This document shows, piece by piece, positions 10,373 to 28,719 of a stretch of DNA of 51,908 nt. The stretch spans positions 1 through 51,908 of the forward strand of contig JAIEPY010000014.1 in assembly GCA_019748155.1 (NCBI GenBank), in the 5' to 3' direction. Within the stretch, counting starts at the first letter, position 1. Every line of letters begins with the position of its first letter. Position numbers and translations under genes: made by a program. The notes beneath the pieces were generated by a model. The model did not search any database and was not told the DNA's origin. It saw nothing but the letters and a program-made list of their open reading frames with translations. This stretch comes from Burkholderiales bacterium (GTDB taxonomy: Bacteria; Pseudomonadota; Gammaproteobacteria; Burkholderiales; UBA11063).

Positions 10373-10408
10373 GAAGAATCCTTTAATAATGGGTATAATT
10401 AGCCAGTG

Positions 10409-10414
10409 ATTATA
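10409..10414 (-). promoter_or_regulatory. Candidate -10 box for suhB
   Basis: A perfect TATAAT on the minus strand lies 37 bases upstream of the suhB ATG, a sensible distance. No convincing -35 is seen 16-18 bases further up, so this is only a candidate. Confidence 0.3.
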
Positions 10415-10510
10415 CCGCACAAAGTGTATTCTTTAGCTCGTAATTACTCCCTTTATACAATTACTATGCTGCACTGCGTCTAAAATGCATGATATTATTA
10501 AGGTCGTTTA

Positions 10511-10519
10511 TGCTAGAAT
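10511..10519 (+). promoter_or_regulatory. Candidate extended -10 promoter for lepB
   Basis: TGCTAGAAT matches the extended -10 pattern TGnTAnnnT and lies 36 bases before the lepB ATG, in the divergent suhB/lepB gap. The -35 region is poor, as is common for extended -10 promoters. Confidence 0.35.
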
Positions 10520-10555
10520 CACACGTTTATGTAATCAATAGTTTAAAGAGGCAGT

Positions 10556-13098: not shown

Positions 13099-14205
13099 AT
13101 GATTTCAGTAGTGATTTTAACTAAAAACAGCGCCAAGTATATTGAGCGCTGTTTGGGTGTCTTACAAGCCTTTCCTGAAGTAGTTGTCGTTGATAATGGC
13201 TCTACTGATCAAACCATGGAGATTGCGGCTGGATTTGCGAATGTTAAGCTTTATCAGCGTGAATTTTGTGGCTTTGGGCCATTAAAAAATATCGGCGCAC
13301 AATTAGCTAAGCATGACTGGGTATTCTTTGTTGATAGTGATGAGATTGTTAGCCCTGAGTTAGTCCAAAAAATACTTGGACAGCACTTAAGCGAGCAAGA
13401 AGTTTATCGCTTTTATCGTAAAAATTATTATGCCGGACACTTGATTAATGGTTGCAATTGGGATAATGATTATGTGGTGCGTTTATATAATCGTAAAATC
13501 ACAAGCTTTAATGACAATCAGGTACATGAAAGTATTCAAACCAACAATTTAACTGTCACAACGCTAAGTGACAAAAACTCCTTTATCTATCATTTTCCCT
13601 ACAATAATACCCGTCAATTAATGACAAAACTGGAGCACTATGCTGATCTTTATGCTGTAACTAAGCTTGGGCATAAAAAAGTAAGATTGTGGACGCTTCC
13701 GTTTCGTTTCTTTATGGCCTTTATTAAAAGCTATGTGCTTAAAAAAGGTTTTAAATACGGCTATGAAGGCTTTTTAATTAGTAGCTATAATGCGATGGGC
13801 GTACTGGTTAAATATCTTAAACTCTATGAATTAAGCACTGCTAAAAGTTGCGTTATTGCATTAAAAATAGCGGATCAGCAAGAACTGGCAAATGCAATAC
13901 GATTAATTAATGCTCAAACACTAGTTCCTTCTCGGGTAATCTTCTTGTTTTCGGAGCTACTCTCTCAACAAATGCCTGCAATGCGCAAATTGTTAGCTGA
14001 GAATTTGATTCCTGCTGCAGACTGCATTGTCTATGATACTCAAGATGTAACGCAAACTTTGTCAAATTATCAGCAAGATAATGCAGATGCTGGACAAGTT
14101 ATGTTTTTCTTTGATGTAAATAGTTTAACAAATATTAGAATCGTTGAATTTAGTTTACACAACAAAATTAGCTCAGACCGTATTCAGATATTTTATAAGT
14201 GTTAA
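13099..14205 (+). CDS. WaaE/KdtX-like family 2 glycosyltransferase with C-terminal extension
   Basis: A cytoplasmic GT-A transferase of 368 residues. The first 95 residues hold the nucleotide-sugar binding fold, with VVVVDNGSTDQT and the DSD metal site at 79-81 (FFVDSDE), resembling WaaE/KdtX-type lipopolysaccharide-core glucosyltransferases. Those are usually near 260 residues; here about 120 residues follow (from roughly 245) with a Rossmann-like pattern of alternating beta and alpha segments (CVIALKIADQQELANAIRL, VIFLFSELL, VMFFFDVNSL) that I do not recognise. It begins eight bases after era, an unusual operon partner, and leads into the sugar-fusion gene. Acceptor and sugar cannot be named. 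Confidence 0.75.
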   Translation: MISVVILTKNSAKYIERCLGVLQAFPEVVVVDNGSTDQTMEIAAGFANVKLYQREFCGFGPLKNIGAQLAKHDWVFFVDSDEIVSPELVQKILGQHLSEQEVYRFYRKNYYAGHLINGCNWDNDYVVRLYNRKITSFNDNQVHESIQTNNLTVTTLSDKNSFIYHFPYNNTRQLMTKLEHYADLYAVTKLGHKKVRLWTLPFRFFMAFIKSYVLKKGFKYGYEGFLISSYNAMGVLVKYLKLYELSTAKSCVIALKIADQQELANAIRLINAQTLVPSRVIFLFSELLSQQMPAMRKLLAENLIPAADCIVYDTQDVTQTLSNYQQDNADAGQVMFFFDVNSLTNIRIVEFSLHNKISSDRIQIFYKC

Positions 14206-14256: not shown

Positions 14257-16299
14257 ATGAATAAAGTAGCTAATGTTGATTTATCTTTGCTAGCAGAGCA
14301 ACGAGTATTTATAACCGGTGGGACTGGATTTGTAGGTAAGAACTTGCTTAAGTTTTTAATCGATCATGACATTGCGCCAAAGCAAATTACAATTTTAACG
14401 CGTAGTATACAAAAATTTAGACAGAAATATCCAGAGCTGGCAAATCAGGAATGGTTAGACTTTGAGCAAGCAGACATTAGAAACCTACAGTGGAACAATC
14501 AAAAATATGATTATTTTATTCATGCTGCAACTAGTGTCGTAGAGCAATCTGACTCAAAGACGCTGTTTGATGAAATAGTTGAGGGTATTAAAAAAGCATT
14601 GTTGTTTGCTGAACACGCAGGGGTTAAGAGTTTTATTAACATTAGTTCTGGTGCGGTTTACCAATTAAACCAAAAGCAGATTGGATTAACAGAAGATTCC
14701 CCATTAGTTACCAAGCTAGACAATCCTAAAAATACTTATGCGGTAGCTAAAATAAGCAGTGAACATTTGGCATATTTAGCTTCGTACAACGCTGGGATCA
14801 AAGTTACTACTTTACGCTGTTTTTGTTTTGCTGGTGCATATTTAGAGCCTACTCATTTTGCAATTGGTGAGTTTGTGCAAAAGGCATTGAAGAATGAAGA
14901 TATAATGGTGCAAGCTGGTGGTGGGATTTATCGTTCATATTTATCCTCTACTGATTTGGCTCAGCAGATCTTTGAAACATTGATTGTATCAAGTATACGT
15001 GCTAGTAATTATGAAGTCTATAATCTAGGTTCTGATAATGCAATAAGTTTGCCTGATTTGGCGCATAAGGTGGTTGAGGTTTTAGGAAGTGAATCAAAAG
15101 TTACTACGCCAAATATAAGCTCTGTAGATGTTAATTATTATGTACCAAGTACTAATAAACTTGATAGGATATTAGGGAAGTCAGCAAAATTACTTGATAT
15201 CATAATTAGAGAGGCTGCAGAATATTATCGTAGTTTAACCGTTAAGACTGAGCTAGTTAAAGATCCTGCAGAATATTATAGCAAGGTAAGCCAAACAGAA
15301 ATTTTTACTCAAAGAACTAGCCTGTCAGTAATTGTTGCCTGTTATAATGATGAGCAAGCTATTCCAATTATGGCAGAACGATTAGTTATGGTACTAAGCA
15401 AGTGTAACCTTGACTATGAGATAATTTTTGTGAGTAATGGAAGTAACGATAATTCAATTCAGGTAATTCAAGAGTTATCTGCTCAAAATCGGCGGATTAG
15501 TGGTGTAACTCATTCCCGGAGTTTTGAACAGACCTCACAAGCTTCTTTTTTGAATGGAATGGAGCTCTCAAGCAAGCAAGCCTGTGTCTTGTTAGATGGT
15601 GATCTTCAAGATCCGCCAGAAATGATTGAAGACTTTGTTGCCAAATGGCAAGAGGGATATGATATTGTTTATGGTGTGCGTCATAAGCGTGAAGCACCGT
15701 TATTTGTTCAAATTGGCTCTAAAATTTTTTATCGTTTATTTGATAAGTTATCTACCATCCGAATGCCGCATGATGCAGGTGATTTTTCTTTAATTGATCG
15801 GCGTGCAGTGGATTGGATGCTGGCAACACATGAACATGATGTTTTAATCCGTGGAATGCGTGCGTACGTCGGCTTTAAGCATATTGGAGTTAAGTACTTC
15901 AGACCAGAACGAATGTTTGGTAACTCATCAAATAACTTTTTTAAACTGATTATGTGGCTGAAAAAAGGAATTTTTTCTTATTCACGTCGTCCATTAGATT
16001 GGATGACTACGGCTGGTTTTGGGCTGGTAGCTCTTTCAATTTTACTAGCGATTATTCAAGTGTTAATTCGCCTATTTTATCCATCTGCTACGCCACATGG
16101 GCTTACGACTATTATGCTATTAATTATGTTTTTTGGCTCGTTTTCAATCTTGGCAATTAGTATTTTGGGTGAGTACATAGCCAAAATTGTCGAAGAAACC
16201 AAAAAAAGACCAATTTATATTCGGGATCTTAGAATTAAGGATGGCGAAATTAAAAAAATCTCTTTTGATGAGCATTCCTGTGCAAAACGAGAGCGCTAG
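14257..16299 (+). CDS. Fusion: NAD-dependent epimerase/dehydratase + GtrB/DPM-like polyprenyl-phosphate glycosyltransferase
   Basis: A 680-residue two-enzyme protein. Residues 15-325 form an extended SDR with GGTGFVG (21-27), the SSG serine near 131 and YAVAK (Tyr161, Lys165), typical of nucleotide-sugar epimerases, dehydratases or reductases. Residues 354-580 are a GT2 domain with VIVACYNDE and DGDLQDPPE (447-455), the signature of dolichol/undecaprenyl-phosphate sugar synthases such as GtrB, ArnC and DPM1, followed by two membrane helices at about 590-612 and 622-650. The two domains normally occur as separate proteins. I infer that it modifies a nucleotide sugar and passes it to a polyprenyl phosphate on the cytoplasmic side. 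The polytopic protein encoded 46 bases downstream could use the product; no GtrA-like flippase is seen nearby. Confidence 0.85.
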   Translation: MNKVANVDLSLLAEQRVFITGGTGFVGKNLLKFLIDHDIAPKQITILTRSIQKFRQKYPELANQEWLDFEQADIRNLQWNNQKYDYFIHAATSVVEQSDSKTLFDEIVEGIKKALLFAEHAGVKSFINISSGAVYQLNQKQIGLTEDSPLVTKLDNPKNTYAVAKISSEHLAYLASYNAGIKVTTLRCFCFAGAYLEPTHFAIGEFVQKALKNEDIMVQAGGGIYRSYLSSTDLAQQIFETLIVSSIRASNYEVYNLGSDNAISLPDLAHKVVEVLGSESKVTTPNISSVDVNYYVPSTNKLDRILGKSAKLLDIIIREAAEYYRSLTVKTELVKDPAEYYSKVSQTEIFTQRTSLSVIVACYNDEQAIPIMAERLVMVLSKCNLDYEIIFVSNGSNDNSIQVIQELSAQNRRISGVTHSRSFEQTSQASFLNGMELSSKQACVLLDGDLQDPPEMIEDFVAKWQEGYDIVYGVRHKREAPLFVQIGSKIFYRLFDKLSTIRMPHDAGDFSLIDRRAVDWMLATHEHDVLIRGMRAYVGFKHIGVKYFRPERMFGNSSNNFFKLIMWLKKGIFSYSRRPLDWMTTAGFGLVALSILLAIIQVLIRLFYPSATPHGLTTIMLLIMFFGSFSILAISILGEYIAKIVEETKKRPIYIRDLRIKDGEIKKISFDEHSCAKRER

Positions 16300-16345: not shown

Positions 16346-18070
16346 ATGCTTAAATATAAAAAATTAGTAAACTTGTGTCAGTACCTGCTATGCATAGTTA
16401 CTATGTTATTTATGTTATTTGCTTTTTCTGGTATCAATTATTTTAGTTTTGCTTCGCCACTATTTTATGCTTATGATGGTATTTTTAGCTTAGGTATAGT
16501 TAAAGGTATTCTAGAAAATCATAGTATTTGGGTAAATCCTCATTTGGGTTTTCCGAATGGCTATATTGGCTATGATTTTCCAATGACTGAATCCTTCCAT
16601 GTCTTATTAATAGTGCTGCTAGGCTTGATATTTGGACATGATCCGATCGTTATTACTAATCTCTTTTATTTACTAAGCTTTGTTTTAGCTGCACTAACTA
16701 GCTTATGGGTGCTCCGCTATTATAAAATATCTTATCCTCTAGCATTAGCCGGCGCTGTAGTATTTACGTTTTTACCGTATCATTTCTACCGCTCTACTAT
16801 GCATTTGTTTTTGTCGTCATATTTTACAATTCCACTGTGGTGCGCTGTAATCACTACTATTTATCAAAACGGTAGGATTAAGTTACATAGCAACAATATC
16901 TTAAATATATTATTTATCTTATTACTGAGTTATGTATTGTCAGCAACTGGGATTTATTATACTTTCTTTGGTTGCTTTTTTTTAATTTGTGTCGCGGTAA
17001 TTGTCTGGAGTGAAAAACGAACATCTGCAGCAATAATCAGCCTAACAATTATTGTGTTAGCCGTCTGTTTTATTATCCTTCAGTTAGCACCATCAATACT
17101 TTATCATGCACAACATGGAGCCAATCCATTAGCCGCGGTAAGAAGCTCTGCTCAGACTGAGATTTATGGTTTGCGAATTGCGCATTTACTATTGTCACCA
17201 GAATATGAGCGAATTAGTTTTTTAGCAAATATCAGTAATCGCTATAATCAAATATTTGTTTCTGGATTAAATGAAAGTATTTACTCTCATCTCGGATTGA
17301 TTTCATCTTGCGGATTTATCTTGTTATTACTGATGATCTTTATACCGCGTAAATTTCCTGATAATACTCAGTTAAAATTAATTAGCAAGCTTAATTTACT
17401 GGCTGTATTATTTGCGACAACGAGTGGCTTTGCCGTTTTATTCTCTTTTTTTGTGACTGATATGATCCGTTCGGTAAATCGAATAAGTATTTTTATTGCT
17501 TTTTTTGCTATTTTTATGGTGTTGTATTTATTACAGTGCGTAATCTCTAAGTTTAAAATACATATTATTGTATATTGGCTAATTTCAATTGGGGTATTAT
17601 ATCTTGCAGCTATCGATCAAATTGATTCATCCTCATTTGATAATCGTAAAAATATTATGCCTGCAGCGAGCGATAAATATTTTGTTTCTGATATTGAGCA
17701 AACGCTACCTAAAGGATCAGCAGTGTTTCAACTTCCATATATGGATTTTCCTGAACCTAGGATTATTTCTGGTACTATGGGAACCTATGAACCAATGTCA
17801 TTATATCTTTACTCACGGGATCTATATTGGAGTTATGGTGCAACTAGGGGTAGAGATGTCGATAAATGGGATAAGACCACTACAGCTTTGCCGGTGAAGG
17901 CAATGTTAGCTAAATTAAAGCCAGCAGGCTATAGCGGAATCGTCATTGACACTTATGGCTATCAAGACAAAGGGCAGAGCATTATCCATGAACTAAATCA
18001 TGAACTAGGAAAGTCTCCGTTAATTAGCTTAGATCATCATTATGTATTTTACTCATTAGGTAGCAAATAA
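16346..18070 (+). CDS. Polytopic membrane protein, probable GT-C glycosyltransferase
   Basis: A 574-residue protein with about ten to twelve hydrophobic segments between residues 10 and 425 and a soluble C-terminal tail of about 150 residues. The first loop after helix 1 carries the acidic FYAYDGIFSLG and later NPHLGFPNG, in the position where GT-C transferases keep catalytic acids. It follows the epimerase/GtrB-like fusion by 46 bases, the arrangement of gtrB-gtrC modules in which a GT-C protein uses the polyprenyl-linked sugar in the periplasm. I do not recognise a specific family. Its TAA ends one base before the stop codon of the convergent PMT gene, leaving no spacer. Confidence 0.55.
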   Translation: MLKYKKLVNLCQYLLCIVTMLFMLFAFSGINYFSFASPLFYAYDGIFSLGIVKGILENHSIWVNPHLGFPNGYIGYDFPMTESFHVLLIVLLGLIFGHDPIVITNLFYLLSFVLAALTSLWVLRYYKISYPLALAGAVVFTFLPYHFYRSTMHLFLSSYFTIPLWCAVITTIYQNGRIKLHSNNILNILFILLLSYVLSATGIYYTFFGCFFLICVAVIVWSEKRTSAAIISLTIIVLAVCFIILQLAPSILYHAQHGANPLAAVRSSAQTEIYGLRIAHLLLSPEYERISFLANISNRYNQIFVSGLNESIYSHLGLISSCGFILLLLMIFIPRKFPDNTQLKLISKLNLLAVLFATTSGFAVLFSFFVTDMIRSVNRISIFIAFFAIFMVLYLLQCVISKFKIHIIVYWLISIGVLYLAAIDQIDSSSFDNRKNIMPAASDKYFVSDIEQTLPKGSAVFQLPYMDFPEPRIISGTMGTYEPMSLYLYSRDLYWSYGATRGRDVDKWDKTTTALPVKAMLAKLKPAGYSGIVIDTYGYQDKGQSIIHELNHELGKSPLISLDHHYVFYSLGSK

Positions 18071-19837
18071 TCAAAAATCCCATGACTGATACCAAAGTAA
18101 GTAACGATAAGTATAATCACGATGGATTTCTAAGCCTGAAATTGCCGGATAAAAAAGGATAAATAGCCCTATTACTAAAATTAAATAGATACAGACTAAT
18201 CTTTTTAAGCTTTTTTCTGAGCGTTTGAGTGCTGCATCAAGCGCCCAGGTAATTGCTAAAATCATAAATGGTGTCACTGAGTATAAATAGTAAATAAAAC
18301 TCGTGCGCTTCAAGAGCATATATGGTAAATATTGCGAGGCAATCGCCAGTAAAATAAAACCTAGTTGCCAGCTCCGCGTTTTGACAAAGTTTATCATCAT
18401 TATCAAAATTGCCACAATACTAAACCACCAAATTGCTGGATTACCCATCAAAACAATAGAACTATATTCTTTTGTGGTGTAATTCATCCAGCTATAAATC
18501 CTTTGAGGGCGAAGCATCAAAAACCATGACCACCATGGCGACTCAAATTGATGATGGTGGGTAACTGCATAAGTAGTATGGTAGTGCCACATTGCCAGAT
18601 GTTGTTGGATTATAAAACTTATAAAGTTTTGTGATTCGGTTTGAGTTGCGTACTGTGGTATAAAGCTCATAGAGTACAGAATGATAACGAATATACTTAG
18701 ATAAGCTAATTTAAGAGTGCTCCGAATATTACTCTTTCTAATGGCATTTTGTACGTTATCGGATACTGCCAGTTGATGTTTAAACTGTGGTTTTTTATAA
18801 AAAAACTCATAATAAATTATGATCGGTAATATTGCGAGTAATGAAAATAATGCAATCCATTTAGTAGCCAGTGCAAGCGCAAAAAAGAGAGCGATCCCCC
18901 ATAGATTATTTTGTGCCGAATTTAGCTTAGCAAGTTTTTGGTTCTCAATGTAGCAAAAGAGCATTAGGTACTCTGCACAAATAAATAATGTCACCATTGA
19001 GTCAATTAAAGCATAGCGGTTAATCGTAAAATGCATAAAATCAAACATTAATAATAATGCTGCAAAAATAGCCGCACGGTTACTTTTAAAAACCTTTTTA
19101 GCAAAGTAGTATATTAGGGGAACCATGATAATACCACAGAGGTATGCCATAATCCGCCAACCAAGTGGCTTCATGCCGAAAATTAAAATCCCTAATGCAA
19201 TAATTAAAGTCCCCAGCGGTGGGTGTGTATTTGCAAAAAGAGGAAGATGATGAATGTATTGATATGCAGTTATCACATAATATAGCTCATCAAAAACGAT
19301 GCTTGATTTTATTGATGGGTCATAATTTTTTGGTGGTGATAGTGTAGCAAAAAGTGTCTTAATGCTATCGCTAGTATTATCATAGCCGATTGATATTTTG
19401 TAATTTTTAACGAGATTATTCTTGTTATCAAAAATAGCCAATTGTTTGAATTCAATTGTTGGTGACTCTGTACTGAAAGTCAGGCGGTTAATCTTGAGAT
19501 TTTGCTTAAAAGCTATGCTGCTCCATTGATAAACTGGCGGTTGCTTACCAGAGGTATCAATTTCGACGATTGGTGAATCTATGCCTGACTCAAGTTGTGC
19601 GGATACTTTAAATTTGCCATTACTTAAGCCTAAGAAATAATAGACTCTACTAAGCTTAGTTGGCTTATCGAAAATAAAAGTAATATTTTTACTTTCATAA
19701 TTACCTATCCAGGTTGCACTAGGGTTTCCGCTAATTTGGGCTAAGTTGACTCCGCTGATGATCGCATAAACTATAGCCAGCAATAGCGGGATTAACCAAC
19801 TCTTGCGGTTTAATAATCTTTTAAATAAATTAAGCAC
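18071..19837 (-). CDS. Protein O-mannosyltransferase-like (PMT, GT39) paralogue 1, with discoidin-like domain
   Basis: A 588-residue membrane transferase expected to move a sugar from a polyprenyl phosphate to an acceptor on the periplasmic side. After one N-terminal helix (14-34), residues 36-150 form a beta-rich soluble domain ending in the shared motif IEFKQLAIFD, then the catalytic Asp183-Glu184 (VFDELYYV) and HPPLG at 205-209. The C-terminal third has SPWWSWFLMLRP and GNPAIWW, matching the four-helix C-terminal region of bacterial PMTs such as mycobacterial Rv1002c. It lacks the extra first helix of its three paralogues. The start is GTG, preceded by GAAGAAAG, 23 bases after the stop of paralogue 2, so both are one transcript. 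Mannose specificity is not proven. Confidence 0.82.
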   Translation of the reverse strand: MLNLFKRLLNRKSWLIPLLLAIVYAIISGVNLAQISGNPSATWIGNYESKNITFIFDKPTKLSRVYYFLGLSNGKFKVSAQLESGIDSPIVEIDTSGKQPPVYQWSSIAFKQNLKINRLTFSTESPTIEFKQLAIFDNKNNLVKNYKISIGYDNTSDSIKTLFATLSPPKNYDPSIKSSIVFDELYYVITAYQYIHHLPLFANTHPPLGTLIIALGILIFGMKPLGWRIMAYLCGIIMVPLIYYFAKKVFKSNRAAIFAALLLMFDFMHFTINRYALIDSMVTLFICAEYLMLFCYIENQKLAKLNSAQNNLWGIALFFALALATKWIALFSLLAILPIIIYYEFFYKKPQFKHQLAVSDNVQNAIRKSNIRSTLKLAYLSIFVIILYSMSFIPQYATQTESQNFISFIIQQHLAMWHYHTTYAVTHHHQFESPWWSWFLMLRPQRIYSWMNYTTKEYSSIVLMGNPAIWWFSIVAILIMMINFVKTRSWQLGFILLAIASQYLPYMLLKRTSFIYYLYSVTPFMILAITWALDAALKRSEKSLKRLVCIYLILVIGLFILFYPAISGLEIHRDYTYRYLLWYQSWDF

Positions 19838-19860
19838 AGTTTATATCTTTCTTCGTCATA

Positions 19861-21666
19861 TTATGATTGGTATAAATGCCAGCTTGGATACCATGAAAGG
19901 TATTTCAATATGTAGTTACTATCAATTTCAACTCCAGCCAGCACGGGATAAAACATGATAAATAACCCAATGACTGCTGCAAGATATATGTAAATAAGTA
20001 TGTTTAGTTTTTTCGTGGATGACTTTAATAAAACCTGTATACTAGCAGCGATAGATAAAATCCACAATGGAGTAACACTATAGAAATAATAGATATAACT
20101 AATCCGGCTAATGAATATAAATGGTAATAATTGTGCGGCAACCAATAGGGCAATAAAAAGATAGTTTGTTTGGCGTTGTTTAATTGCATAAATAGCTATC
20201 AATATTATAGCCGGAATTCCTAGCCACCAGATTAGTGGATTTCCCATGAGGGTGATGCTAATCACTTGGTGAGGAACTGGAGTCAGTGAGTAAATATTCA
20301 TTGGGTTCATGATTAGTGGCCAGCTCCACCATTGTGAGCCTTGCAACATACTATGAAGCTCTTTGATGCCTTTGCTGTGAAACCAGAGCATAAGTTTCTG
20401 TGCATTAATAAATAATTCAAATAAACTAGCTTGCTGAGTGATAATACTGTATGGCACAAAACTAAGAATATAAATTAAGCTCGGAATAAGCATAGTTGAT
20501 AGAGCGTACGTAAATAGTATAGGTAAATTTAGTAATTTTGCTTTACGAATGACGCAGAGTAAAATAACTATTCCGATTGGAATTAGCGTAAATAATGCGG
20601 TCCACTTACAGGCTAATCCAAGACCTAAGCAAATTCCAACGTATAGTATGTTTCGAGTCGCACACTTAAAGTCTAATGCATTATTAGCAAGAATATACTG
20701 ATATAAAAAATAATATTCTAAACAAATAAATAGTGTCACCTCTGGCTCAATTAAAGCATAGCGATTGATACTAAAATGCATAAAATCAAACATTAATAAA
20801 AATGCAGCAACTAAAGCGATCTTGCGTTGTCTAAATAATTGCAGGGCAAATAAATAGACGATAATTAAGACTAGAATTCCGCATAATAAGGGCATTATTC
20901 TCCAGCCAAATGGAGTTTCACCAAACATGGCAATACCCGCAGCAATAATAAAGGTGCTGAGATGTGGGTTTTCTGATAGTGTTGGTGCAATTTTATGTAG
21001 GTAATCAAGAGCTGTTTTTGCATAATACACTTCGTCAAAGATCATTGTGTTTTGTGGCGTATTGATTATTTTAAGTGGCACGTGCTTTGTGATTAATAAA
21101 TTTTGCGGTTTAATTGTTTTATTAGAAGTGATCGCCACATCTGTTATATAACGGTTGCTGTTATCAAAAAGTGCAATTTGTTTAATTTCAATTGGTGCTA
21201 TAGTTGTACGAATCCATAGTTTATTAAATTGAAGTTGTGAGTTTACTCCATAGCTAAGCCAGCGATAATTTAATGGATGCGTACTATCGGTTTTAACCTC
21301 AAGTAATTCTATTTGTTGGATATTTTTATTTGCTACATAAACTTTGAAATCACCATCGAGGTTTCCAATATAGAGATTTATTTGCTTTAGCGTTGTCGGT
21401 TTAGCAAAATTTAACTCTAATTGGTCATTGCTCTGCAGCGAGTAGTAGCTAGCCTTTTTTGCCCGCTCGCCTAGGTGCGGGATACTTATACAAAATGAGA
21501 TCACTATGATCAATAAAATATTCAAAAAATCAAATTTATTTAATCTGATTTTATAAGCGATATTTTGGTTTAATGAGGTATTTCTGGTTTGAAACAGTGC
21601 ATAGGCGCAGCTAATTGATAATAAAGCGAGAATAGCAAAAATTTGGAGGTGCAATAAATTAATCAT
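19861..21666 (-). CDS. Protein O-mannosyltransferase-like (PMT, GT39) paralogue 2, with discoidin-like domain
   Basis: A 601-residue paralogue with two N-terminal helices (about 8-24 and 47-65), a beta-rich periplasmic domain at about 68-182 ending IEIKQIALFD, catalytic Asp211-Glu212 in IFDEVYYAKTA, a run of membrane helices, then SQWWSWPLIMNP and GNPLIWW. In place of the HPPLG of the other copies it reads NPHLST, a change in the otherwise conserved loop after DE that may alter substrate use or activity. It is the first gene of the leftward pair and starts about 30 bases downstream of the leftward arm of the palindromic promoter. No strong ribosome site is visible. Confidence 0.82.
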   Translation of the reverse strand: MINLLHLQIFAILALLSISCAYALFQTRNTSLNQNIAYKIRLNKFDFLNILLIIVISFCISIPHLGERAKKASYYSLQSNDQLELNFAKPTTLKQINLYIGNLDGDFKVYVANKNIQQIELLEVKTDSTHPLNYRWLSYGVNSQLQFNKLWIRTTIAPIEIKQIALFDNSNRYITDVAITSNKTIKPQNLLITKHVPLKIINTPQNTMIFDEVYYAKTALDYLHKIAPTLSENPHLSTFIIAAGIAMFGETPFGWRIMPLLCGILVLIIVYLFALQLFRQRKIALVAAFLLMFDFMHFSINRYALIEPEVTLFICLEYYFLYQYILANNALDFKCATRNILYVGICLGLGLACKWTALFTLIPIGIVILLCVIRKAKLLNLPILFTYALSTMLIPSLIYILSFVPYSIITQQASLFELFINAQKLMLWFHSKGIKELHSMLQGSQWWSWPLIMNPMNIYSLTPVPHQVISITLMGNPLIWWLGIPAIILIAIYAIKQRQTNYLFIALLVAAQLLPFIFISRISYIYYFYSVTPLWILSIAASIQVLLKSSTKKLNILIYIYLAAVIGLFIMFYPVLAGVEIDSNYILKYLSWYPSWHLYQS

Positions 21667-21697
21667 TAGCTATTTGAATCTGTTATTTTTAAGTTGT

Positions 21698-21737
21698 CGC
21701 GATTATAACATACTATATCTAATATGCTATAATCGCG
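21698..21737. promoter_or_regulatory. Palindromic divergent promoter of the four PMT genes
   Basis: CGCGATTATA (21698-21707) is the exact reverse complement of TATAATCGCG (21728-21737), and CATA/TATG just inside extend the symmetry. Each arm holds a perfect extended -10 box facing outwards: TGCTATAAT on the plus strand (21725-21733) and TGTTATAAT on the minus strand (21710-21702). The -35 position of each promoter falls on the opposite -10 box, so two polymerases could not bind at once. Leaders would be about 30 bases on each side. Any regulator of the palindrome would control both PMT pairs. Confidence 0.7.
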
Positions 21738-21769
21738 CATCAAATTTAATTATTTTGATTGGTATCTGA

Positions 21770-23608
21770 ATGCTTTCATGGCAAATAATGTTAATTATTG
21801 CGACAACGCTAGGGTGCATATTTCTGGGGTGCTATTATCTCTTAGCGCGTAATGGGGGTAAACTAGCACCGAACTTAGATCGCTATGATTATTTATTTCT
21901 TATCATTATAGTCTTAATTTATCTTGCATTAAGTCTAATTAATTTTGGTGAAAAACCAACTGATAAAACAATCTGGAGTAGTACTAGTTCTGCTAAGCAT
22001 TTAATTATGAAGCCAATTCAGGCGCAAACCAGCGGAGACTTATATTTCAAAACTGGAGTTTTTACCGCTACATTATTGATTCAAGCCCAAACTATGTTTA
22101 GTGAAAGTTTGATTGTGTTGGCAAAAATTGACCCAGAAATCAAAGAGGAGCCACAATTAAAATGGAATAGCTTTCATTTTAGTTCCCCAGTGCCAATCAC
22201 GGCTTTTTATTTCACTGTTGAATCATCAAATATTCTCCCTCCCGAATATAGAGATACTCAGCGCGGTGTAGAAATTCAACGTTTAGCCTTGTACGACGTA
22301 CAAAATCAGCACATGCTATCTTCAGTTGTGGTTAATGATTCCTCTGGCAAAGATTATACTTCAATCCTGGAAAGCCAACTATCGCCACTACAACTAACTA
22401 ATGTTTGGTTCAACTCTGCGGTGTTTGATGAATATTATTATGCCGCCGCCGCACAAGAATATTTAAAGCAGTGGGGCACAGTTACACAAGCACATCCACC
22501 GCTTGCTATGTTAATTATTGCGCTTGGGATATTCTTATTTGGACTCAATCCGTTTGGCTGGCGAATTTTGGCAAATCTTAGTGGTGTTATTTTGATTCCA
22601 TTAATTTATATTTTTACCAAGCGCTTAACCGGTAATCGTTATGCGGCGATGATTGCAGCAATTTTGCTGAGTGTTGATTTTATGCATTTTGTAATTTCGC
22701 GGATGGCAAGTATCGAACCATTTGTTACGCTGTTGTTACTTTGTGAGTATTTGTTCTTATTTCAGTACCTACAAGTAAAACTAAATGGTTATGGCGATAA
22801 AGCAGCATTAAAAAACATTTTTGCAGTTGGGTTATTTAGCGGGCTCGCGATTGCCTGTAAATGGTCCGGTTTATTTGTACTGCCTGCGCTTATACTGGTG
22901 TTAGTATGGGCGTCTCTAGCTAGCGGAGCAAAACCAGTTAAACTATCAATTGCATTACAGTATCTATTATTTTTAGTAGTATTACCACTTTGTATTTATT
23001 GCCTTAGTTTTGTACCGTTATTTGCAATCAAACACGCGACTAATTTTGCCAGTTTTATACTGGAAACACAAAAAAGCATGTATCAGTTTCATACTCATGA
23101 GGCTTTGGATTTTCATAATATCTATGCTTCAAAGTGGTGGACATGGCCATTAGTGTTGCAGCCTATGTCAATCGCTTTTGTGATGCTTGATCCGGTAAGT
23201 AAACTATCTCAATCGGTTGGATTGTTAGGTAATCCTTTGGTATGGTGGGGCGCATCTGCAGCAGTGATTGTATTAGCTCTCTTGCTAATTTCTCCAAAAT
23301 TTAGAAAACCAGAGCTTTACTTTATTTTATTGGCAATAGCGGCTCAATATATCCCTTATGTTTTTATTAGTCGTTTAAGTTATATTTATTATTTTTACTC
23401 GGTATTACCGTTGGTAATTATAGCGTTTGCTTATTTAGTAATGCTCATGCTTAAATTAAACAGCAAAATGATTAATTGGTTAATTTTTATCTATGTTATG
23501 CTTTGTCTCTGGCTCTTTGTTATGTTTTTCCCGGCATTGAGCGGGCTTAATATTAACCGTGATTTTGTCTATCATTTTTTGCTGTGGTTTAAGACCTGGC
23601 AATTTTAA
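21770..23608 (+). CDS. Protein O-mannosyltransferase-like (PMT, GT39) paralogue 3, with discoidin-like domain
   Basis: A 612-residue paralogue, the first of the rightward pair. Two N-terminal helices (about 5-24 and 41-58) are followed by a beta-rich domain at about 62-190, the most divergent of the four but still ending VEIQRLALYD. Catalytic Asp220-Glu221 lies in VFDEYYYAAAA and HPPLA follows. SVDFMHFVISRMASIEP marks the conserved helix-loop after the active site, and SKWWTWPLVLQP with GNPLVWW the C-terminal PMT region. The next paralogue begins 13 bases after the stop. Ribosome site is weak (TTGGTA). Substrate unknown; sugar donor is presumably polyprenyl-linked. Confidence 0.82.
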   Translation: MLSWQIMLIIATTLGCIFLGCYYLLARNGGKLAPNLDRYDYLFLIIIVLIYLALSLINFGEKPTDKTIWSSTSSAKHLIMKPIQAQTSGDLYFKTGVFTATLLIQAQTMFSESLIVLAKIDPEIKEEPQLKWNSFHFSSPVPITAFYFTVESSNILPPEYRDTQRGVEIQRLALYDVQNQHMLSSVVVNDSSGKDYTSILESQLSPLQLTNVWFNSAVFDEYYYAAAAQEYLKQWGTVTQAHPPLAMLIIALGIFLFGLNPFGWRILANLSGVILIPLIYIFTKRLTGNRYAAMIAAILLSVDFMHFVISRMASIEPFVTLLLLCEYLFLFQYLQVKLNGYGDKAALKNIFAVGLFSGLAIACKWSGLFVLPALILVLVWASLASGAKPVKLSIALQYLLFLVVLPLCIYCLSFVPLFAIKHATNFASFILETQKSMYQFHTHEALDFHNIYASKWWTWPLVLQPMSIAFVMLDPVSKLSQSVGLLGNPLVWWGASAAVIVLALLLISPKFRKPELYFILLAIAAQYIPYVFISRLSYIYYFYSVLPLVIIAFAYLVMLMLKLNSKMINWLIFIYVMLCLWLFVMFFPALSGLNINRDFVYHFLLWFKTWQF

Positions 23609-23621
23609 GTGGAATTAGTTT

Positions 23622-25430
23622 ATGTCCTTAGCGGTTGTTCAATTATCTTTGACTGTCGGTGTTTTTTTAGCCGTGCTAATCTATTATCTGTATCAGATTA
23701 AGAAGTGCTCCTTACCGCATGGAAATAGATTATCTTTCTTAGACAAGACTGATTATTTACTCATTGTTATTATTAGCTCTGTTTACGCAGGTATTAGCTT
23801 AATTAATCTTGGTAGTAAGCTTGAGCCAAATACACCAGTTAGGCTAACAGCAACTCAAGGGATTGAGATTAATTTTGCTAGACCAACTCAGATTGATCAG
23901 TTTTACTATGCTTTGGGATATGTGAGTGGTGCTGTTAATTTTAGCTATGTGCGTAGTGATAATAAAACTCAGAGTATCACGATTGATCCCGGGACTTTTA
24001 TGTGGAATAATCTGCAATTAAACGATCCGAATGCCAAGTATAAACAAATTACTCTAACGCCTGAATCAGGAGTGATTGAATTGCGTCAGCTGGCATTATT
24101 TGATAATACTAACTATGTAACTAATTTTACCCTAACTCAAGCAGGGCACATGATCCCGAGTCAGAAGCTGGTGAGTGTAGAGGTACCACAAGACTATCAA
24201 AGCATCTGGCATTCGAGTACGATTTGGGATGAGTATTATTATGTAACTACCGCCTATCAATTTAACCACCATTTACCGGCGCTGATAACTGTGCATCCGC
24301 CGCTAGGGATGTATTTGATTAGTGCTGGAATGAGCGTATTTGGTGATAATCCATTTGCTTGGCGTATAGTGCCAGATTTAGCAGGGATTTTGTTGCTAAT
24401 CTTGGTCTATGTATTTACTAAAAAATTATCTCTATCACGAAGCGCGGCAGTGATAGCCAGTATCTTACTCAGCGTCGATTTTATGCATTTTATGATTACA
24501 CGAATGGCATCGTTAGAGTCAACTTTGGCATTTTTTGCCATTTTGAGTATTTTCTTTTTATACTGCTATGCCGAAGTCAGACAGCGTGGTGAAAGTTTTA
24601 ATGCTACACTGCGATATTTACTGCCTTGCGCCTTAAGCATTGCATTGGCAATTAGTATCAAATGGTCAGCACTTTATTCTCTAGTAACTGCTTTGCTGGT
24701 GATTACTTATTTTGAGTTTATTTATTCTTATTGTGATTCATTGCGCGCTAAATTGCTTACTCTGCTGAATATCTGTGCTTTATTTATTGTGTTACCTGTG
24801 AGTTTTTATTTTAGTTGTTATTACCCAACGGTTTTTTATCCATTTTATAAGAATTCAGGTATAAACAATTTTTGGGCCTTTGTTGGTTCTTTGCAAGCTG
24901 TGATGTACCAATTCCATACTCATATGATTAACCACGTTCCTAATGCTGGTGGTGGTTCTCAGTGGTGGCAATGGCCTTTAATAACCCAACCTCAGTTGGT
25001 TTATCGCTGGTTAGATACCAGAAGTAATTTATCATCTCTTGGGCTTTTGATGGGGAATCCTTTAATCTGCTGGTTATTTTATCCATCCTTGTTATTGATG
25101 TTAGTTCATCTACTTAAAGTCAGAAAATTTATGCCATTATTTCTGTTGTCTGTAACACTATTACAGTTTTTGCCCTATGCTTTATTTGGCAGAATTAGTT
25201 ATATTTATTATTTTTATATCAGCAGTGTTTTTGGTATCATGATGCTTGCTTATTTATTTAGCCAAGCATTACAACTAAAAAATAAACGGCTGAATTATCT
25301 GATTACAGGGTATGTGCTAGCCTGTATTTTATTATTTGCTGCTTTTTATCCGCTACTCAGTGGTTTGCCAGTGGAGCGCTCATATTTTATTAAATATTTA
25401 CTCTGGTATCACAATTGGCAATTTATTTAA
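23622..25430 (+). CDS. Protein O-mannosyltransferase-like (PMT, GT39) paralogue 4, with discoidin-like domain
   Basis: A 602-residue paralogue with two N-terminal helices (about 4-24 and 44-62), a beta-rich domain at about 68-175 ending IELRQLALFD, catalytic Asp203-Glu204 in IWDEYYYVTTA and a following HPPLG. The C-terminal part shows SQWWQWPLITQP and GNPLICW. It is closest in style to paralogue 3 (SVDFMHFMITRMASLES). The stop codon overlaps the convergent PglL-like gene by eight bases, so no terminator separates the two converging units. Confidence 0.82.
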   Translation: MSLAVVQLSLTVGVFLAVLIYYLYQIKKCSLPHGNRLSFLDKTDYLLIVIISSVYAGISLINLGSKLEPNTPVRLTATQGIEINFARPTQIDQFYYALGYVSGAVNFSYVRSDNKTQSITIDPGTFMWNNLQLNDPNAKYKQITLTPESGVIELRQLALFDNTNYVTNFTLTQAGHMIPSQKLVSVEVPQDYQSIWHSSTIWDEYYYVTTAYQFNHHLPALITVHPPLGMYLISAGMSVFGDNPFAWRIVPDLAGILLLILVYVFTKKLSLSRSAAVIASILLSVDFMHFMITRMASLESTLAFFAILSIFFLYCYAEVRQRGESFNATLRYLLPCALSIALAISIKWSALYSLVTALLVITYFEFIYSYCDSLRAKLLTLLNICALFIVLPVSFYFSCYYPTVFYPFYKNSGINNFWAFVGSLQAVMYQFHTHMINHVPNAGGGSQWWQWPLITQPQLVYRWLDTRSNLSSLGLLMGNPLICWLFYPSLLLMLVHLLKVRKFMPLFLLSVTLLQFLPYALFGRISYIYYFYISSVFGIMMLAYLFSQALQLKNKRLNYLITGYVLACILLFAAFYPLLSGLPVERSYFIKYLLWYHNWQFI

Positions 25431-27321
25431 TTTTGATGTTGTGTGTAGTTTCATAGTCTTTGACATAAGCCAATAGAGCGCCTTTGGCTTTATTGTTTGA
25501 GCCTGTTGATAGATTGATTTGGTTAGTTATATAATTACGAAATGGAAAATAATTATCTAGAGTCTGATTAATTAAAGCTCTGGCTGCTTGGTCTTTGCCA
25601 ATGATTTGATCCATAATTGCGAGCTTAGTAGTATAACTTGGGTATGGTGTAAATGAGCTTACTTTTTGTGTAGCATTACACATTATATCAAAAAGCCATG
25701 CGTTATCTGTGGTGCGTTCAGTTAAAGTTAGCTTTTGAATTAAATCAACATCTACGAAATAATCCCAGAGCAAGTTATTGCCAAGCTGATATTTTTGTCC
25801 AACGTTATTTAGCCAGTTTTTTTTATCATAGTCCGCAACCGGCTTAAACTGCGCTAAAATCATAAAGTTATTATAACCGACATAAATCTGCCAGCTGGCA
25901 ACTATAATTGTAACTACTGCCGCCAGCTTAAACCATTTTTTACTGATTTGTAGTTTTAGAGCTTTCTGATCACTCAAAGTAGTTAAAATCATAAAGCAAA
26001 AAAGAAATGGTGTATAAAATAGTGGAAATTCGGTTTGAGAATGTATTATATTAATCATGATTATTCCCAAACATAAAATTTGTGCTTTAATTTCAAGCTT
26101 AAGACAACAGCGTATCCAATAGATACAGCCAAAAATTACAATTGCAAAGCCAATTAATCCTGTAGTAGCCAGAAGCTGGATGAATAGATTGTGGGTGTTA
26201 AATGGTAAGGAATATTCTAGCAGTGTCTCAGGAAATCCAGCTGCAAGAGTGGTTGTAAATAAATTAGCCGCAAAATAATCCCAGCCAACGCCAGTAATAG
26301 GATGTTCTGTAAACATACGAATACCCTTGAGCCAGAAAATAACCCGTAAATTGTCATTGGCAAAGCTTACTTGATGATCACCACTTAGTAACTCTTTGAA
26401 AGTCGTAAAAATTTTTACAGTACGGTCTGCACTATTCAATTGACGAGACACTTCGTTTAATGCCGTTGATGAGTGGTAAGCAAAATCTAAGCCCCCTTTA
26501 GCCGCAAAAGTTACTGTGGCTAACATTATTATGCTATGAATAAGAAGTAATTTAGCATAGTGAGGAGATTTCTTTAAAATAGCTAATCCATAAATTAGAA
26601 TAAATGCACCATAGATAAGTACCGTGCGGCTAAAAGTTAGACTAATGAAAGTACTAAAGAGAAAAATATTAAAAATAAAGAAAATTTTGTAGATTCTCTT
26701 ATCCATCCGCCAGAGATAAATATTAGCAAATATTCCCCATGATAAATAATTGGCTAGATTATTGCTTTTATAGAGTGAACCCATGACCTGTTCCTGATTA
26801 CCCGCGAGCAAATCATAATAGGAGTATGATATAGTGCCATCCATATAGGGATAGAATTTTAATGGAATTAAGTAATGAATACCGTAAAGTTGTAAGATAC
26901 ATATAATACACTGAATATAGCCGCCAAAGATGATGCACCATGCGATTAAACTAAATATTCGTTGGCTATCTAATCTGAGCTGTGTAATTATGATAGATAG
27001 TAATAGCAGTATCCATAAGCAAGAAATCAATAAATATGAAAATGTCTTATAGTAGTCTAAAAAATTAAGCTGAATAACGATAAATAAGATAAATGCCACA
27101 ATTATAATTTGAGTAATCGTAAGAAAATATACCTCCGTAGTATTGTTTCTCTGAATTAAGTATGCAGCTAAGATGGTTATTGTAATTAGAAGCGGAATCG
27201 TTTCGCGGAGATAAAAACTATAGAGAATAATCGTATCTGGACTAAAATATGGTAGAAATGGTATGCAGAAGAAAGATGCTAACAAGACTAAAAGAGATAG
27301 CGGAGTTTTATTATGTGCCAT
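25423..27321 (-). CDS. PglL-like O-oligosaccharyltransferase (Wzy_C family)
   Basis: A polytopic protein of 632 residues with about twelve helices to residue 450 and a C-terminal periplasmic or soluble tail. GNQEQVMGSLYKSNNLANYL matches the N-terminal PglL signature (GxxxQxNxxAxYL type), and the Wzy_C loop contains GVGWDYFA and FNTHNLFIQLLATTGLIG, with His377 at the place of the catalytic-loop His of Neisseria PglL. These enzymes move lipid-linked glycans to Ser of pilins and other proteins. It lies directly downstream of two pilin genes, the position of TfpO/PglL enzymes dedicated to pilins. The ATG at 27321 follows a strong hairpin by 19 bases; a GTG three codons earlier is possible. O-antigen ligase is the main alternative. 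Confidence 0.8.
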   Translation of the reverse strand: MAHNKTPLSLLVLLASFFCIPFLPYFSPDTIILYSFYLRETIPLLITITILAAYLIQRNNTTEVYFLTITQIIIVAFILFIVIQLNFLDYYKTFSYLLISCLWILLLLSIIITQLRLDSQRIFSLIAWCIIFGGYIQCIICILQLYGIHYLIPLKFYPYMDGTISYSYYDLLAGNQEQVMGSLYKSNNLANYLSWGIFANIYLWRMDKRIYKIFFIFNIFLFSTFISLTFSRTVLIYGAFILIYGLAILKKSPHYAKLLLIHSIIMLATVTFAAKGGLDFAYHSSTALNEVSRQLNSADRTVKIFTTFKELLSGDHQVSFANDNLRVIFWLKGIRMFTEHPITGVGWDYFAANLFTTTLAAGFPETLLEYSLPFNTHNLFIQLLATTGLIGFAIVIFGCIYWIRCCLKLEIKAQILCLGIIMINIIHSQTEFPLFYTPFLFCFMILTTLSDQKALKLQISKKWFKLAAVVTIIVASWQIYVGYNNFMILAQFKPVADYDKKNWLNNVGQKYQLGNNLLWDYFVDVDLIQKLTLTERTTDNAWLFDIMCNATQKVSSFTPYPSYTTKLAIMDQIIGKDQAARALINQTLDNYFPFRNYITNQINLSTGSNNKAKGALLAYVKDYETTHNIKIK

Positions 27322-27340
27322 GCGTGTCACTGCTTTTTAT

Positions 27341-27377
27341 ATAAAGAGGACTAAGCAATTTGCTTAGCCCTCTTTAT
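27341..27377 (-). terminator. Terminator between pilin 1 and the PglL-like gene
   Basis: ATAAAGAGGACTAAGC (27341-27356) pairs with GCTTAGCCCTCTTTAT (27362-27377) with one imperfect pair and a five-base loop, 17 bases past the pilin stop. The next gene starts only 19 bases later, leaving no room for its own promoter, so readthrough probably sets a high pilin to low transferase ratio. Confidence 0.75.
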
Positions 27378-27394
27378 TGAGATTTTATAAAGAA

Positions 27395-27814
27395 TTAAGA
27401 TTTACAGTTAGATGGACGGTATTGGTTAATTAAAGTACCATTAGCAGTACAAGACCATGTGATGCCAGAGCCAGAAGTTGTAGGAGTAAATACAATATTA
27501 GATGACGCAGTAGGTATACCTGAAATTGATGTAGTAACCGTAATCGCACCACCAGCACCCACAGTAACAGCACTTACGTTCGTACCTGAGATAGACGTAG
27601 CTAAACCTGCCTGAGAATTAGTAGTTGGTAAAGCTCCCTGAGATTGGTAGTATTCCGCTACAGATGTCTTAGCTTGGCTGGCAAAAGTCAACGCTTCTGA
27701 CACTTTAGCACGGATAATATAATTTTGATAAGCAGGGATAGCAATCGCTGCCAAAACCCCGATAATCGCAACCGCAATCATTAATTCGATAATTGTGAAA
27801 CCTTTGTTTTTCAT
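27395..27814 (-). CDS. Type IV major pilin, copy 1
   Basis: A 139-residue prepilin. The class III leader MKNKG is cleaved before Phe6 by PilD, and [20 protein letters not shown] with Glu at +5 forms the assembly helix. The body is rich in Ser and Thr (about 60-115), and the C-terminal disulphide loop spans Cys122 and Cys137, ending Asn-Cys-Lys-Ser. A C-terminal Ser after the last Cys is the glycosylation site of TfpO-type pilins in Pseudomonas and Acinetobacter. By eye it differs from copy 2 at nine of 139 residues, clustered at 33-38 and in the disulphide loop. GAGGAAAA is a strong ribosome site. It precedes the PglL-like gene. Confidence 0.93.
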
Positions 27815-27863
27815 GATGTTTTCCTCAAATTAAAAATTAACTTTTAAAATCTTATTCAGATTT

Positions 27864-27889
27864 TTTACTCTTCCTGACTCTATTCTACT
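27864..27889 (-). promoter_or_regulatory. Shared upstream block of pilin 1 (candidate promoter)
   Basis: The block on the minus strand containing TAGAAT (27887-27882) and then GGAAGAGTAAA is conserved upstream of pilin 2 at nearly the same distance from the ATG (68 against 71 bases). TAGAAT could be the -10. An imperfect palindrome (CTACTCTAGTGTAG, plus strand, 27885-27898) overlaps it. No sigma-54 box of the TGGCAC-N5-TTGC type was found. Confidence 0.45.
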
Positions 27890-28045
27890 CTAGTGTAGTT
27901 AAATATGCACGATAAACGTTGATTAATAATAGTTGCATCGTAAAATAATTAATAATATTTGAAGTAAGCTGTTGTTTAGAATCTTTTTTATAATGTTGCT
28001 GAATGTTACATCTATTCTGCAGGAACAGCTTGCGTAATTAATGGT

Positions 28046-28083
28046 GAATAAAAAAGCTAACCAGATGGCTAGCTTTTTTATTC
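28046..28083 (-). terminator. Intrinsic terminator after pilin 2
   Basis: GAATAAAAAAGCTA and TAGCTTTTTTATTC pair perfectly, with CC/GG extending the stem past one mismatch, around a four-base loop; a T6 run closes it on the minus strand. It begins 12 bases past the pilin 2 stop and should insulate pilin 2 from pilin 1. Confidence 0.85.
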
Positions 28084-28095
28084 AAAGATATTTGA

Positions 28096-28515
28096 TTAAG
28101 ACTTACAATTAGATGGACGGTATTGATTATCCAAGTTTCCACCGCTAGTACAAGACCAAGTAATTCCTGAACCAGAAGTGGTAGGACTAAATACAATATT
28201 AGACGACGCAGTAGGTACACCTGAAATTGATGTAGTAACAGTAATCGCACCACCAGCACCCACAGTAACAGCACTTACGTTAGTACCCGAGATAGATGTA
28301 GCCAAACCTGCCTGAGAATTAGTAGTTGGTAAAGCTCCCTGAGATTGGTAGTATTCCGCTACAGATGTTTTAGCTTGACTGGCAAAAGTTAATGCTTCTG
28401 CCACTTTAGCACGGGTAACATAGTTTTGATAAGCAGGGATAGCAATCGCTGCCAAAACCCCGATAATTGCAACCGCAATCATTAATTCGATAATTGTGAA
28501 ACCTTTGTTTTTCAT
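28096..28515 (-). CDS. Type IV major pilin, copy 2
   Basis: A second 139-residue prepilin almost identical to copy 1, with the same leader [11 protein letters not shown], the same Ser/Thr-rich body and the same C-terminal NCKS. Differences: VTRAKVAEA in place of [12 protein letters not shown] for GIP, FSP for FTP, and TSGGNLDN for TANGTLIN in the disulphide loop between Cys122 and Cys137. It has its own promoter block, strong ribosome site and terminator, so it is an independent transcription unit. The pair looks like a recent tandem duplication of about 700 bases with change in the surface-exposed loop. Confidence 0.93.
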
Positions 28516-28567
28516 GATGTTTTCCTCTAATTAAAAATTAAGTTTAAAATCCCTTTTTATGGGTATC

Positions 28568-28593
28568 TTTACTCTTCCTAACATAATTCTACT
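28568..28593 (-). promoter_or_regulatory. Shared upstream block of pilin 2 (candidate promoter)
   Basis: Counterpart of 27864-27889, with TAGAAT at 28591-28586 on the minus strand and the same GGAAGAGTAAA. Here CTAGTAGATTT and CTAGTAGAATT form an 11-base near-perfect direct repeat across the -10, a possible regulator site. The rest of the 204-base gap to cadA holds only AT-rich sequence. Confidence 0.45.
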
Positions 28594-28719
28594 AGAAATC
28601 TACTAGTTTGGCTAATTAATAGTTTATTTAATGTGATTTTTATGCCGCTTATTGCTGTTTTGCTGGCTAAGATATTGTTTTTATTTCTTATAATTGTGTT
28701 GTGTATCAGCGCAATAAAA

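Follow-up and report, generated by a model that had tools for sequence, protein, structure and literature searches.

Why would a bacterium keep four genes of one uncommon glycosyltransferase family next to each other? This question is raised by positions 18,071 to 25,430 of a stretch of 51,908 nucleotides from a Burkholderiales bacterium (GenBank assembly GCA_019748155.1, contig JAIEPY010000014.1), referred to here as the window, which is contig C126 of a 2.67-Mb genome (G000; 136 contigs, 99.99% complete). An initial annotation, made from the letters alone, had named the four encoded proteins (PMT_A to PMT_D; Table 1) paralogous protein mannosyltransferases (PMTs) and suggested that, with adjacent pilins and a PglL-like transferase, they form a dedicated glycosylation system. 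Our analysis places all four with near certainty in the PMT family (GT39), and we hold it fairly probable that they are polyprenyl-phosphate-sugar:protein O-glycosyltransferases adding single sugars to Ser/Thr-rich exported proteins, whose sugar, acceptors and division of labour we infer. New compared with that annotation are a domain resembling carbohydrate-binding module (CBM) family 32 in the PMTs, a fifth PMT copy, an epimerase fused to a PgfS-like GT2, a PMT_B that has lost its HP[P/Q] motif, and an association with Thr-Pro-rich proteins.

Profile searches with both Pfam domains of the family were passed by each of the four proteins, with 56.9-70.1 bits for PF02366 (gathering cut-off 22.7), 35.6-67.8 bits for PF16192 (PMT_4TMC; cut-off 32.4) and E-values of 8.5e-9 to 2.8e-19, which bears out the claim of four PMT-type proteins in one locus. 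The pairwise identity among them is 33-37% over almost the full length. A profile of 28 relatives retrieved four PDB sequences at E<0.001, all of them PMTs (Pmt1, Pmt2 and two Pmt4), and aligned D183-E184 of PMT_A to yeast Pmt1 D77-E78, with the HPPL segments of both proteins also falling together; the stretch between the two Pmt1-aligned parts measures about 45 residues in the window PMT versus 260 in Pmt1. Structure modelling with AlphaFold2 (AF2) covered two of the four, PMT_A (pLDDT 81.9, pTM 0.85) and PMT_D (pLDDT 80.5, pTM 0.82), while PMT_B and PMT_C were placed by alignment. The PMT_A model fits fungal PMTs at Z 34.6-36.8 (418-421 residues, 2.6-3.0 Å), with ArnT next at 27.0, and the PMT_D model at Z 31.5-33.6, followed by oligosaccharyltransferase (24.7) and ArnT (24.0). 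That the proteins are instead ArnT/GT83-type enzymes modifying lipid A, with which they share the GT-C fold and to which PMT_A and PMT_B are linked by weak NCBIfam scores, is highly improbable, since the PMT profile outscores ArnT in all four, PF16192 passes in all four, the ArnT model NF009784 (cut-off 567) gives just 20.6 and 42.3 bits in A and B and no match at E 0.01 in C and D, and the two modelled folds match PMTs far better than ArnT. The assignment to PMT rather than ArnT/GT83 is thus upheld by profiles and by the folds of A and D, and the catalytic Asp-Glu (DE) pair indeed lies at residues 183, 211, 220 and 203 of A to D. Other motifs of the initial annotation need amendment: its W-x-W-P/RP segment reads WSWF...RP in PMT_A, and WxWP followed by NP or QP in B to D, whereas its GNPxxWW segment fails for PMT_D only (GNPLICW, versus GNPLIWW in the orthologue of the sister species G022). 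PMT_B, C and D have one more N-terminal hydrophobic span than PMT_A. All four are under purifying selection versus their G022 orthologues, with ratios of non-synonymous to synonymous substitution rates (dN/dS) of 0.087-0.142 (NG86) or 0.100-0.237 (YN00).

Each of the four PMTs appears to carry a CBM32-like module between its first transmembrane segment (TM1) and the DE pair, modelled in PMT_A and PMT_D and placed by alignment in PMT_B and PMT_C. The DE pair starts at residue 74 in the mycobacterial enzyme MtPMT (Rv1002c) versus 183-220 in the window PMTs, and the TM1-to-DE stretch folds into a beta-sandwich in both models. In PMT_A, residues 37-138 match CBM32-6 (4a42) at a VIA-align Z of 9.5 (2.5 Å, 99 residues) and the CBM32 of NanJ (2v72, a structure with galactose) at 8.9; for the PMT_D sandwich, the only single-domain match listed is CBM29 (1oh3), whose Z of 8.7 is barely above the level that the tool deems common. 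The CBM32 assignment is one of fold. PF00754 (F5_F8_type_C) gave no match in the window proteins at E 0.01 and matched two relatives weakly at the same place (20.5 and 22.7 bits, below the cut-off of 28.2). The stretch is also aligned in 19 clostridial relatives with an N-terminus (the 20th locus is a fragment). Compared with these discoidin-bearing Clostridia PMTs, the window proteins are about 30% identical over nearly the full length, extra domain included, although clostridial genomes mostly have one match each and some clostridial PMTs are fused to further domains. Among other Pseudomonadota, 11 loci were checked, nine with a DE...HPP frame and two without; eight of the nine readable frames, with at most 128 residues from stop to DE, are too short 5' of DE for TM1 plus such a domain, measured against the roughly 170 residues that PMT_A has between the TM1 start and DE. 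The ninth (L070) could be read either way, with 287 residues from the stop and 88 from the first Met.

Eukaryotic PMTs bear a MIR domain in loop EL4, and how bacterial PMTs compensate for its absence is named as an open question in the available excerpt of PMC12331936. The four window PMTs have no Pfam match to MIR at E 0.01. Where fungal PMTs have a MIR beta-trefoil in EL4, the window PMTs have their module before DE, and we infer that it might fill a MIR-like role; the clade thereby offers a concrete candidate for a MIR substitute, a carbohydrate-binding-type module beside the catalytic loop. Separately, some PMTs of 839-1313 residues bear long N-terminal additions (L065:6624-10502, from G026, same order but another family; L025:5502-9443; L013; L014), with CBM_4_9-like matches just under the cut-off in L014, L025 and L065 and a GT87 domain over the cut-off in L025.

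How unusual is this multiplicity? PMT_4TMC occurs in 25 of 398 sampled Pseudomonadota genomes (22 over cut-off), and the other 24 have one match each, in agreement with the view that PMT is rare and usually single-copy in this phylum. The window genome holds five PMT genes among six PMT_4TMC matches, four at the locus and the fifth on C55. In a Clostridia sample, 71 of 196 genomes have the domain, mostly as one match, and G451 has four genes on four contigs. Eight of the 61 relatives searched are PMT-positive, namely G026 from another family and seven genomes (G000, G007, G012, G016, G017, G019 and G022) of the 23 in the genus sample, which comprises the window genome plus 22 further ones. A 38-protein tree unites the 12 locus PMTs in a single group (98/96) nested in one for the genus (100/100), the proteins of Clostridia and G026 standing opposite; it gives no firm branching of A to D, and the tool flags long branches. 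Tree and motif tables omit five rows (three duplicates of G022 proteins, two fragments), and proteins over 660 residues were cut to their last 600. To judge by titles and abstracts, none of the open-licence papers searched describes a system like this one, in which a Neisseriales relative has several PMT-type paralogues at a single locus.

The locus itself recurs within the genus. In G022 the gene order is conserved, including all four PMTs (69-81% identical), and a PIG-V-like protein is added; in G016 and G019 it is conserved with only two PMTs, forming one adjacent pair. The two PMT lineages stand in opposite order in the latter two genomes, meaning that the pair persisted while its order changed. 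Orthologues of the locus-type transferase (E<1e-100) are confined to the same four of the 23 genomes (G000, G016, G019, G022), the next-best match being 1.9e-55 in G011, a genome 59% complete, and one or two PMT pairs adjoin the transferase in all four. This co-occurrence argues for a dedicated locus, as had been proposed. The flanking gene era was found at E 1e-40 in 20 genomes: four have the module, six were read over at least 7 kb (G005, G006, G009, G010, G012, G015) and contain no PMT, transferase or pilin there, three end early (G007, G013, G018) and seven were left unread. Three of the four module genomes also have singleton PMTs. Our best reading of these sequence relationships is that duplication at a single pilin locus gave rise to the PMT set inside the genus. 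A single recent duplication giving rise to the pairs is unsupported, given identities of 36.5% for A-B and 33.6% for C-D versus 32.7-34.6% between pairs.

What might these enzymes modify? Among the 38 open reading frames (ORFs) of at least 130 residues in the window, none is richer in Ser+Thr than the two locus pilins (25.2%; next 15.5%). Across the four module genomes, Ser+Thr accounts for 30-35% of the globular part of the eight locus pilins, versus 12-29% for 12 further pilins from the genus (one-sided U test, p 0.0001; p 0.001 versus the six non-locus pilins of the same genomes), p-values that serve as a guide only, since the rows are related. This set used 21 of 30 pilin loci, of which L105 was then dropped (motif more than 1 kb from the match); of the nine unused loci, two from G019 gave 23 and 25%. 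Pilin targeting by a TfpO-style rule of C-terminal Ser proved inconsistent: Ser is the last residue of five of the eight locus pilins, the pair from G019 have CR at the end, and one from Aquella oligotrophica (G016) has CRN.

Beyond pilins, a DNA pattern encoding (TP)4 was present in all seven PMT-positive and in 5 of 16 PMT-negative genomes of the genus (Fisher p 0.005), and its reversed control in 0 of 23. Overlapping matches numbered 2 in G000, 10 in G007, 2 in G012, 89 in G016, 36 in G017, 51 in G019 and 21 in G022, as compared to 5, 15, 2, 1 and 1 in the negatives. Ten tracts were fetched, each from a different one of the 12 genomes with matches. All are in frame, and by eye eight of the ten proteins have a lipoprotein-like N-terminus, the exceptions being L136 of the window genome and the truncated L137. 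MtPMT prefers Pro-rich Ser/Thr stretches (excerpt of PMC12331936). In A. oligotrophica, a Thr-Pro-type protein (L058:10943-13144) is encoded directly upstream of, and on the same strand as, a singleton PMT gene (9045-10817). PMT presence and Thr-Pro-rich proteins thus vary together in this genus, which includes a cultured type strain, A. oligotrophica P08T (excerpt of PMC6612550), so that PMT genes could be deleted singly there. As to the proteins themselves, L129-L138 (e.g. L136 on C57 of G000, L129 in G016) are exported, mostly lipoprotein-like, and have long Thr-Pro tracts, several with Trp-rich repeats resembling chitin-binding modules by eye. Large lipoprotein-like proteins with Ser/Thr/Pro-rich N-terminal linkers are found at L010:5549-9223, next to an ArnT-like gene of the window genome (58 bits, below cut-off), and in the L058 protein beside the A. 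oligotrophica singleton.

The sugar donor may come from genes at the same locus. The fusion protein encoded at 14257-16299 scores 204 bits with the PgfS model NF047588 over residues 356-656, below the cut-off of 500; relatives reach 283-300 bits, including 283 in G022 and 289 in G016 for the protein encoded in that position. At E 1e-10, nothing else in the window genome matches the PgfS-like protein of A. oligotrophica. Of 20 clostridial loci, 10 have a PgfS-like GT2 gene within the PMT flanks that were fetched, several others being cut by contig ends, and such a gene adjoins the G026 PMT gene as well. One clostridial PMT neighbour tested is a GtrA-type protein; the window genome has two GtrA genes elsewhere and another GT2 on C108, which we take to be DPM1-like. 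The notion that the genome lacks GDP-mannose and hence uses no mannose was rejected, because the GDP-mannose enzyme ManC is present (536 bits, cut-off 373), although ManC does not establish mannose use. In G022 (L012:14796-16515), an unfused GT2 and a methyltransferase replace the epimerase-GT2 fusion, which means that species with the same four PMTs may use different donor steps.

Transfer of a single sugar to protein by the four PMTs is likely. A polyprenyl-phosphate-sugar would be made inside the cell by a GT2 synthase, either the PgfS-like fusion or a GT2 encoded elsewhere, after which a GtrA-type protein would flip it; at the outer face of the inner membrane, the PMTs would then move one sugar from polyprenyl-phosphate to Ser/Thr of exported proteins, the candidate acceptors being the two locus pilins and the Thr-Pro-rich proteins. 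The CBM32-like module could keep a glycan, or the glycoprotein as it grows, close to the active site, like the eukaryotic MIR domain, and the PMT set may work alongside the pilin-linked transferase. Bacterial PMTs (MtPMT, actinobacterial Pmt; GT39) share PF02366 plus PF16192, a DE pair in the first external loop, the RxxY/F motif, absence of MIR and an expected polyprenyl-phosphate donor. Unlike them, the window genome has four to five copies, with a domain of about 100 residues between TM1 and DE, a pilin locus, Glu at the second acidic position in three of four and scores short of the NCBIfam equivalog. Fungal Pmt1, Pmt2 and Pmt4 are the best fold match (Z 31.5-36.8) and also come as several paralogues per genome; Ser/Thr-rich acceptors are assumed here, and the dimers formed by fungal PMTs are possible for the window PMTs. 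Modification of Streptococcus mutans adhesins needs PgfS, the epimerase PgfE, PgfM1 (PMT-2 type) and PgfM2 (excerpt of PMC5856776). The window likewise combines a PgfS-like GT2, an epimerase and PMT-type membrane proteins, but with epimerase and GT2 fused, PMT_4TMC-type enzymes versus a PgfM1 that is PMT-2 by description, and a pilin locus with a Wzy_C transferase.

Several observations weigh against the proposed protein O-glycosylation. The NCBIfam protein O-mannosyltransferase equivalog NF058602 gives the four proteins 43-90 bits, all far below its cut-off of 800. The second acidic residue, Asp in PMT_A, is Glu in B, C and D, where MtPMT needs Asp176, and PMT_B has lost HP[P/Q]. Despite five PMTs, the window genome has only two overlapping (TP)4 matches, as few as any PMT-positive genome, and no lipobox is seen in its tract protein L136. 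The transferase family is present in 15 and pilins in 6 of the 16 PMT-negative genomes of the genus; several of these genomes are small and incomplete, and the co-occurrence tests ignore phylogeny and uneven completeness. Finally, the donor swap in G022, set against the conserved rest of the cluster (69-81% identical), argues somewhat against tight coupling.

One alternative is that the four PMTs act on glycan rather than protein, as GT-C side-chain or elongation transferases decorating a pilin glycan, a lipid-linked precursor or a surface polysaccharide. The CBM-like domain would then recognise this glycan, a role suggested for the one in GT136 and Emb enzymes, and, in the available excerpt of PMC11127046, CBMs occur in glycan-modifying GT-C enzymes and three-component systems consist of a polyprenyl-phosphate-sugar synthase, a flippase and a GT-C enzyme. 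Besides, the neighbours are glycan genes and a Wzy_C-type transferase, and the sister species swapped its donor module while keeping the four PMTs. However, the profile, the C-terminal four-helix domain and the fold are of the protein O-mannosyltransferase type, and Thr-Pro tracts track PMT presence in the genus; we therefore regard glycan decoration as unlikely.

A second alternative, which survives slightly better, questions whether the whole set is catalytic: each adjacent pair might be a heterodimer of an active and a diverged partner, as in yeast Pmt1-Pmt2, with PMT_B the clearest diverged copy. MtPMT requires D74, D176, R441 and an aromatic residue at Y444, and its D176E variant is nearly inactive (excerpt of PMC12331936). 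The first Asp-Glu and the Arg-x2-Tyr/Phe motif (RxxY/F) are conserved in all four window PMTs in the motif alignment. Glu also fills the second acidic position in AqOl_9045 and in the two locus PMTs of A. oligotrophica, which has four copies in all, while both G019 copies have Asp, and the orthologues WIN_E (Asp) and G022_E (Glu) differ from each other. Because orthologues differ, Glu is not taken as loss of function, and the Asp-to-Glu exchange was dropped as a mark of dead paralogues. PMT_B and its G022 orthologue (both NPH) are the sole ones of 47 aligned rows without HP[P/Q], the others having HPP (41) or HPQ (4). Within a pair, 13-23 bp separate the two genes, which share a strand, and G016 and G019 each retain exactly one adjacent pair, with the lineages in swapped order. 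On the other hand, PMT_B retains DE, KW and RxxY and is under purifying selection (dN/dS 0.12-0.18 versus its G022 orthologue; 0.055-0.058 for the fifth copy), and three of the four module genomes have singleton PMTs. We consider partial catalysis within such pairs a tentative possibility, and PMT_B may be a specialised partner. Distinctly doubtful is a more elaborate version of protein O-glycosylation, in which a self-gained, MIR-like, substrate-holding module in the first external loop, two PMT heterodimers and the oligosaccharyltransferase would together provide two modes of periplasmic O-glycosylation for pilins and exported Thr-Pro-rich proteins, one adding single sugars and the other whole glycans.

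Table 1. Features of the PMT locus and its surroundings (positions of the window).
Feature	Position	Strand	Remarks
PMT_A, 588 aa	18071..19837	-	PF02366 68.2 bits, PF16192 67.8 bits; most canonical copy: DE, HPP, second acidic Asp, RxxF
PMT_B, 601 aa	19861..21666	-	PF02366 70.1 bits, PF16192 49.2 bits; NPH in place of HPP, second acidic Glu
PMT_C, 612 aa	21770..23608	+	PF02366 65.2 bits, PF16192 48.0 bits; HPP present, second acidic Glu
PMT_D, 602 aa	23622..25430	+	PF02366 56.9 bits, PF16192 35.6 bits; HPP present, second acidic Glu, GNPLICW
Predicted CBM32-like beta-sandwich of PMT_A, residues 37-138	19424..19729	-	AF2 model, VIA-align; between TM1 and catalytic DE
Predicted beta-sandwich of PMT_D, about residues 69-189	23826..24188	+	AF2 model; strands 73-178
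Divergent intergenic stretch between PMT pairs, 103 bp	21667..21769	.	One sigma-70-like match, + strand, 21705-21733
GT2 glycosyltransferase, directly 3' of era	13099..14205	+	PF00535
Epimerase + PgfS/ArnC-like GT2 fusion, putative polyprenyl-phosphate-sugar synthase	14257..16299	+	PF01370, PF00535; PgfS model 204 bits
Polytopic membrane protein, 574 aa	16346..18070	+	No Pfam or NCBIfam match above cut-off
Pilin-linked Wzy_C + Wzy_C_2 protein	25423..27330	-	PF04932 59.1 bits, PF11846 52.3 bits
Type IV pilin, 139 aa, Ser/Thr-rich, C-terminus CKS	27395..27814	-	PF00114 75.7 bits; Ser+Thr 35% of globular part
Second type IV pilin, 94% identical to first	28096..28515	-	Ser+Thr 35% of globular part

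The gene order in the window runs from era through the GT2, the epimerase-GT2 fusion, the polytopic protein, the PMT_A/B pair (minus strand) and the PMT_C/D pair (plus strand) to the Wzy_C/Wzy_C_2 protein (minus strand) and the two pilins. The PMT ORFs form two divergent pairs, with gaps of 23 bp (A/B) and 13 bp (C/D) within the pairs. Sigma-70-like consensus matches in 18000-28800 number 63 versus 47.7 expected, and the intergenic one is a consensus match only. A GT2 homologue follows era in 9 of the 10 genus contexts read over at least 7 kb. The polytopic protein, perhaps another GT-C enzyme, is 75% identical in G022, and a DUF6311 protein occupies its place in A. oligotrophica.

The Wzy_C/Wzy_C_2 protein, which we take to be a putative O-oligosaccharyltransferase, stands next to the PF00114 pilins, in line with the neighbourhood described in the initial annotation. 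It resembles the pilin-linked TfpO, TfpM and PglS in adjoining its likely pilin substrates (excerpt of PMC12645811) and PglL and PglS in having Wzy_C_2, but it gives no PglL_A match. The window genome has three Wzy_C/Wzy_C_2 genes in total, and the other two (L092:6039-7787 and L093:5361-7199) do have PglL_A. Separate from the locus pilins, a pilin-like protein of 300 residues is encoded at 50137-51039, with a long tail and Ser/Thr making up only 16% of its globular part.

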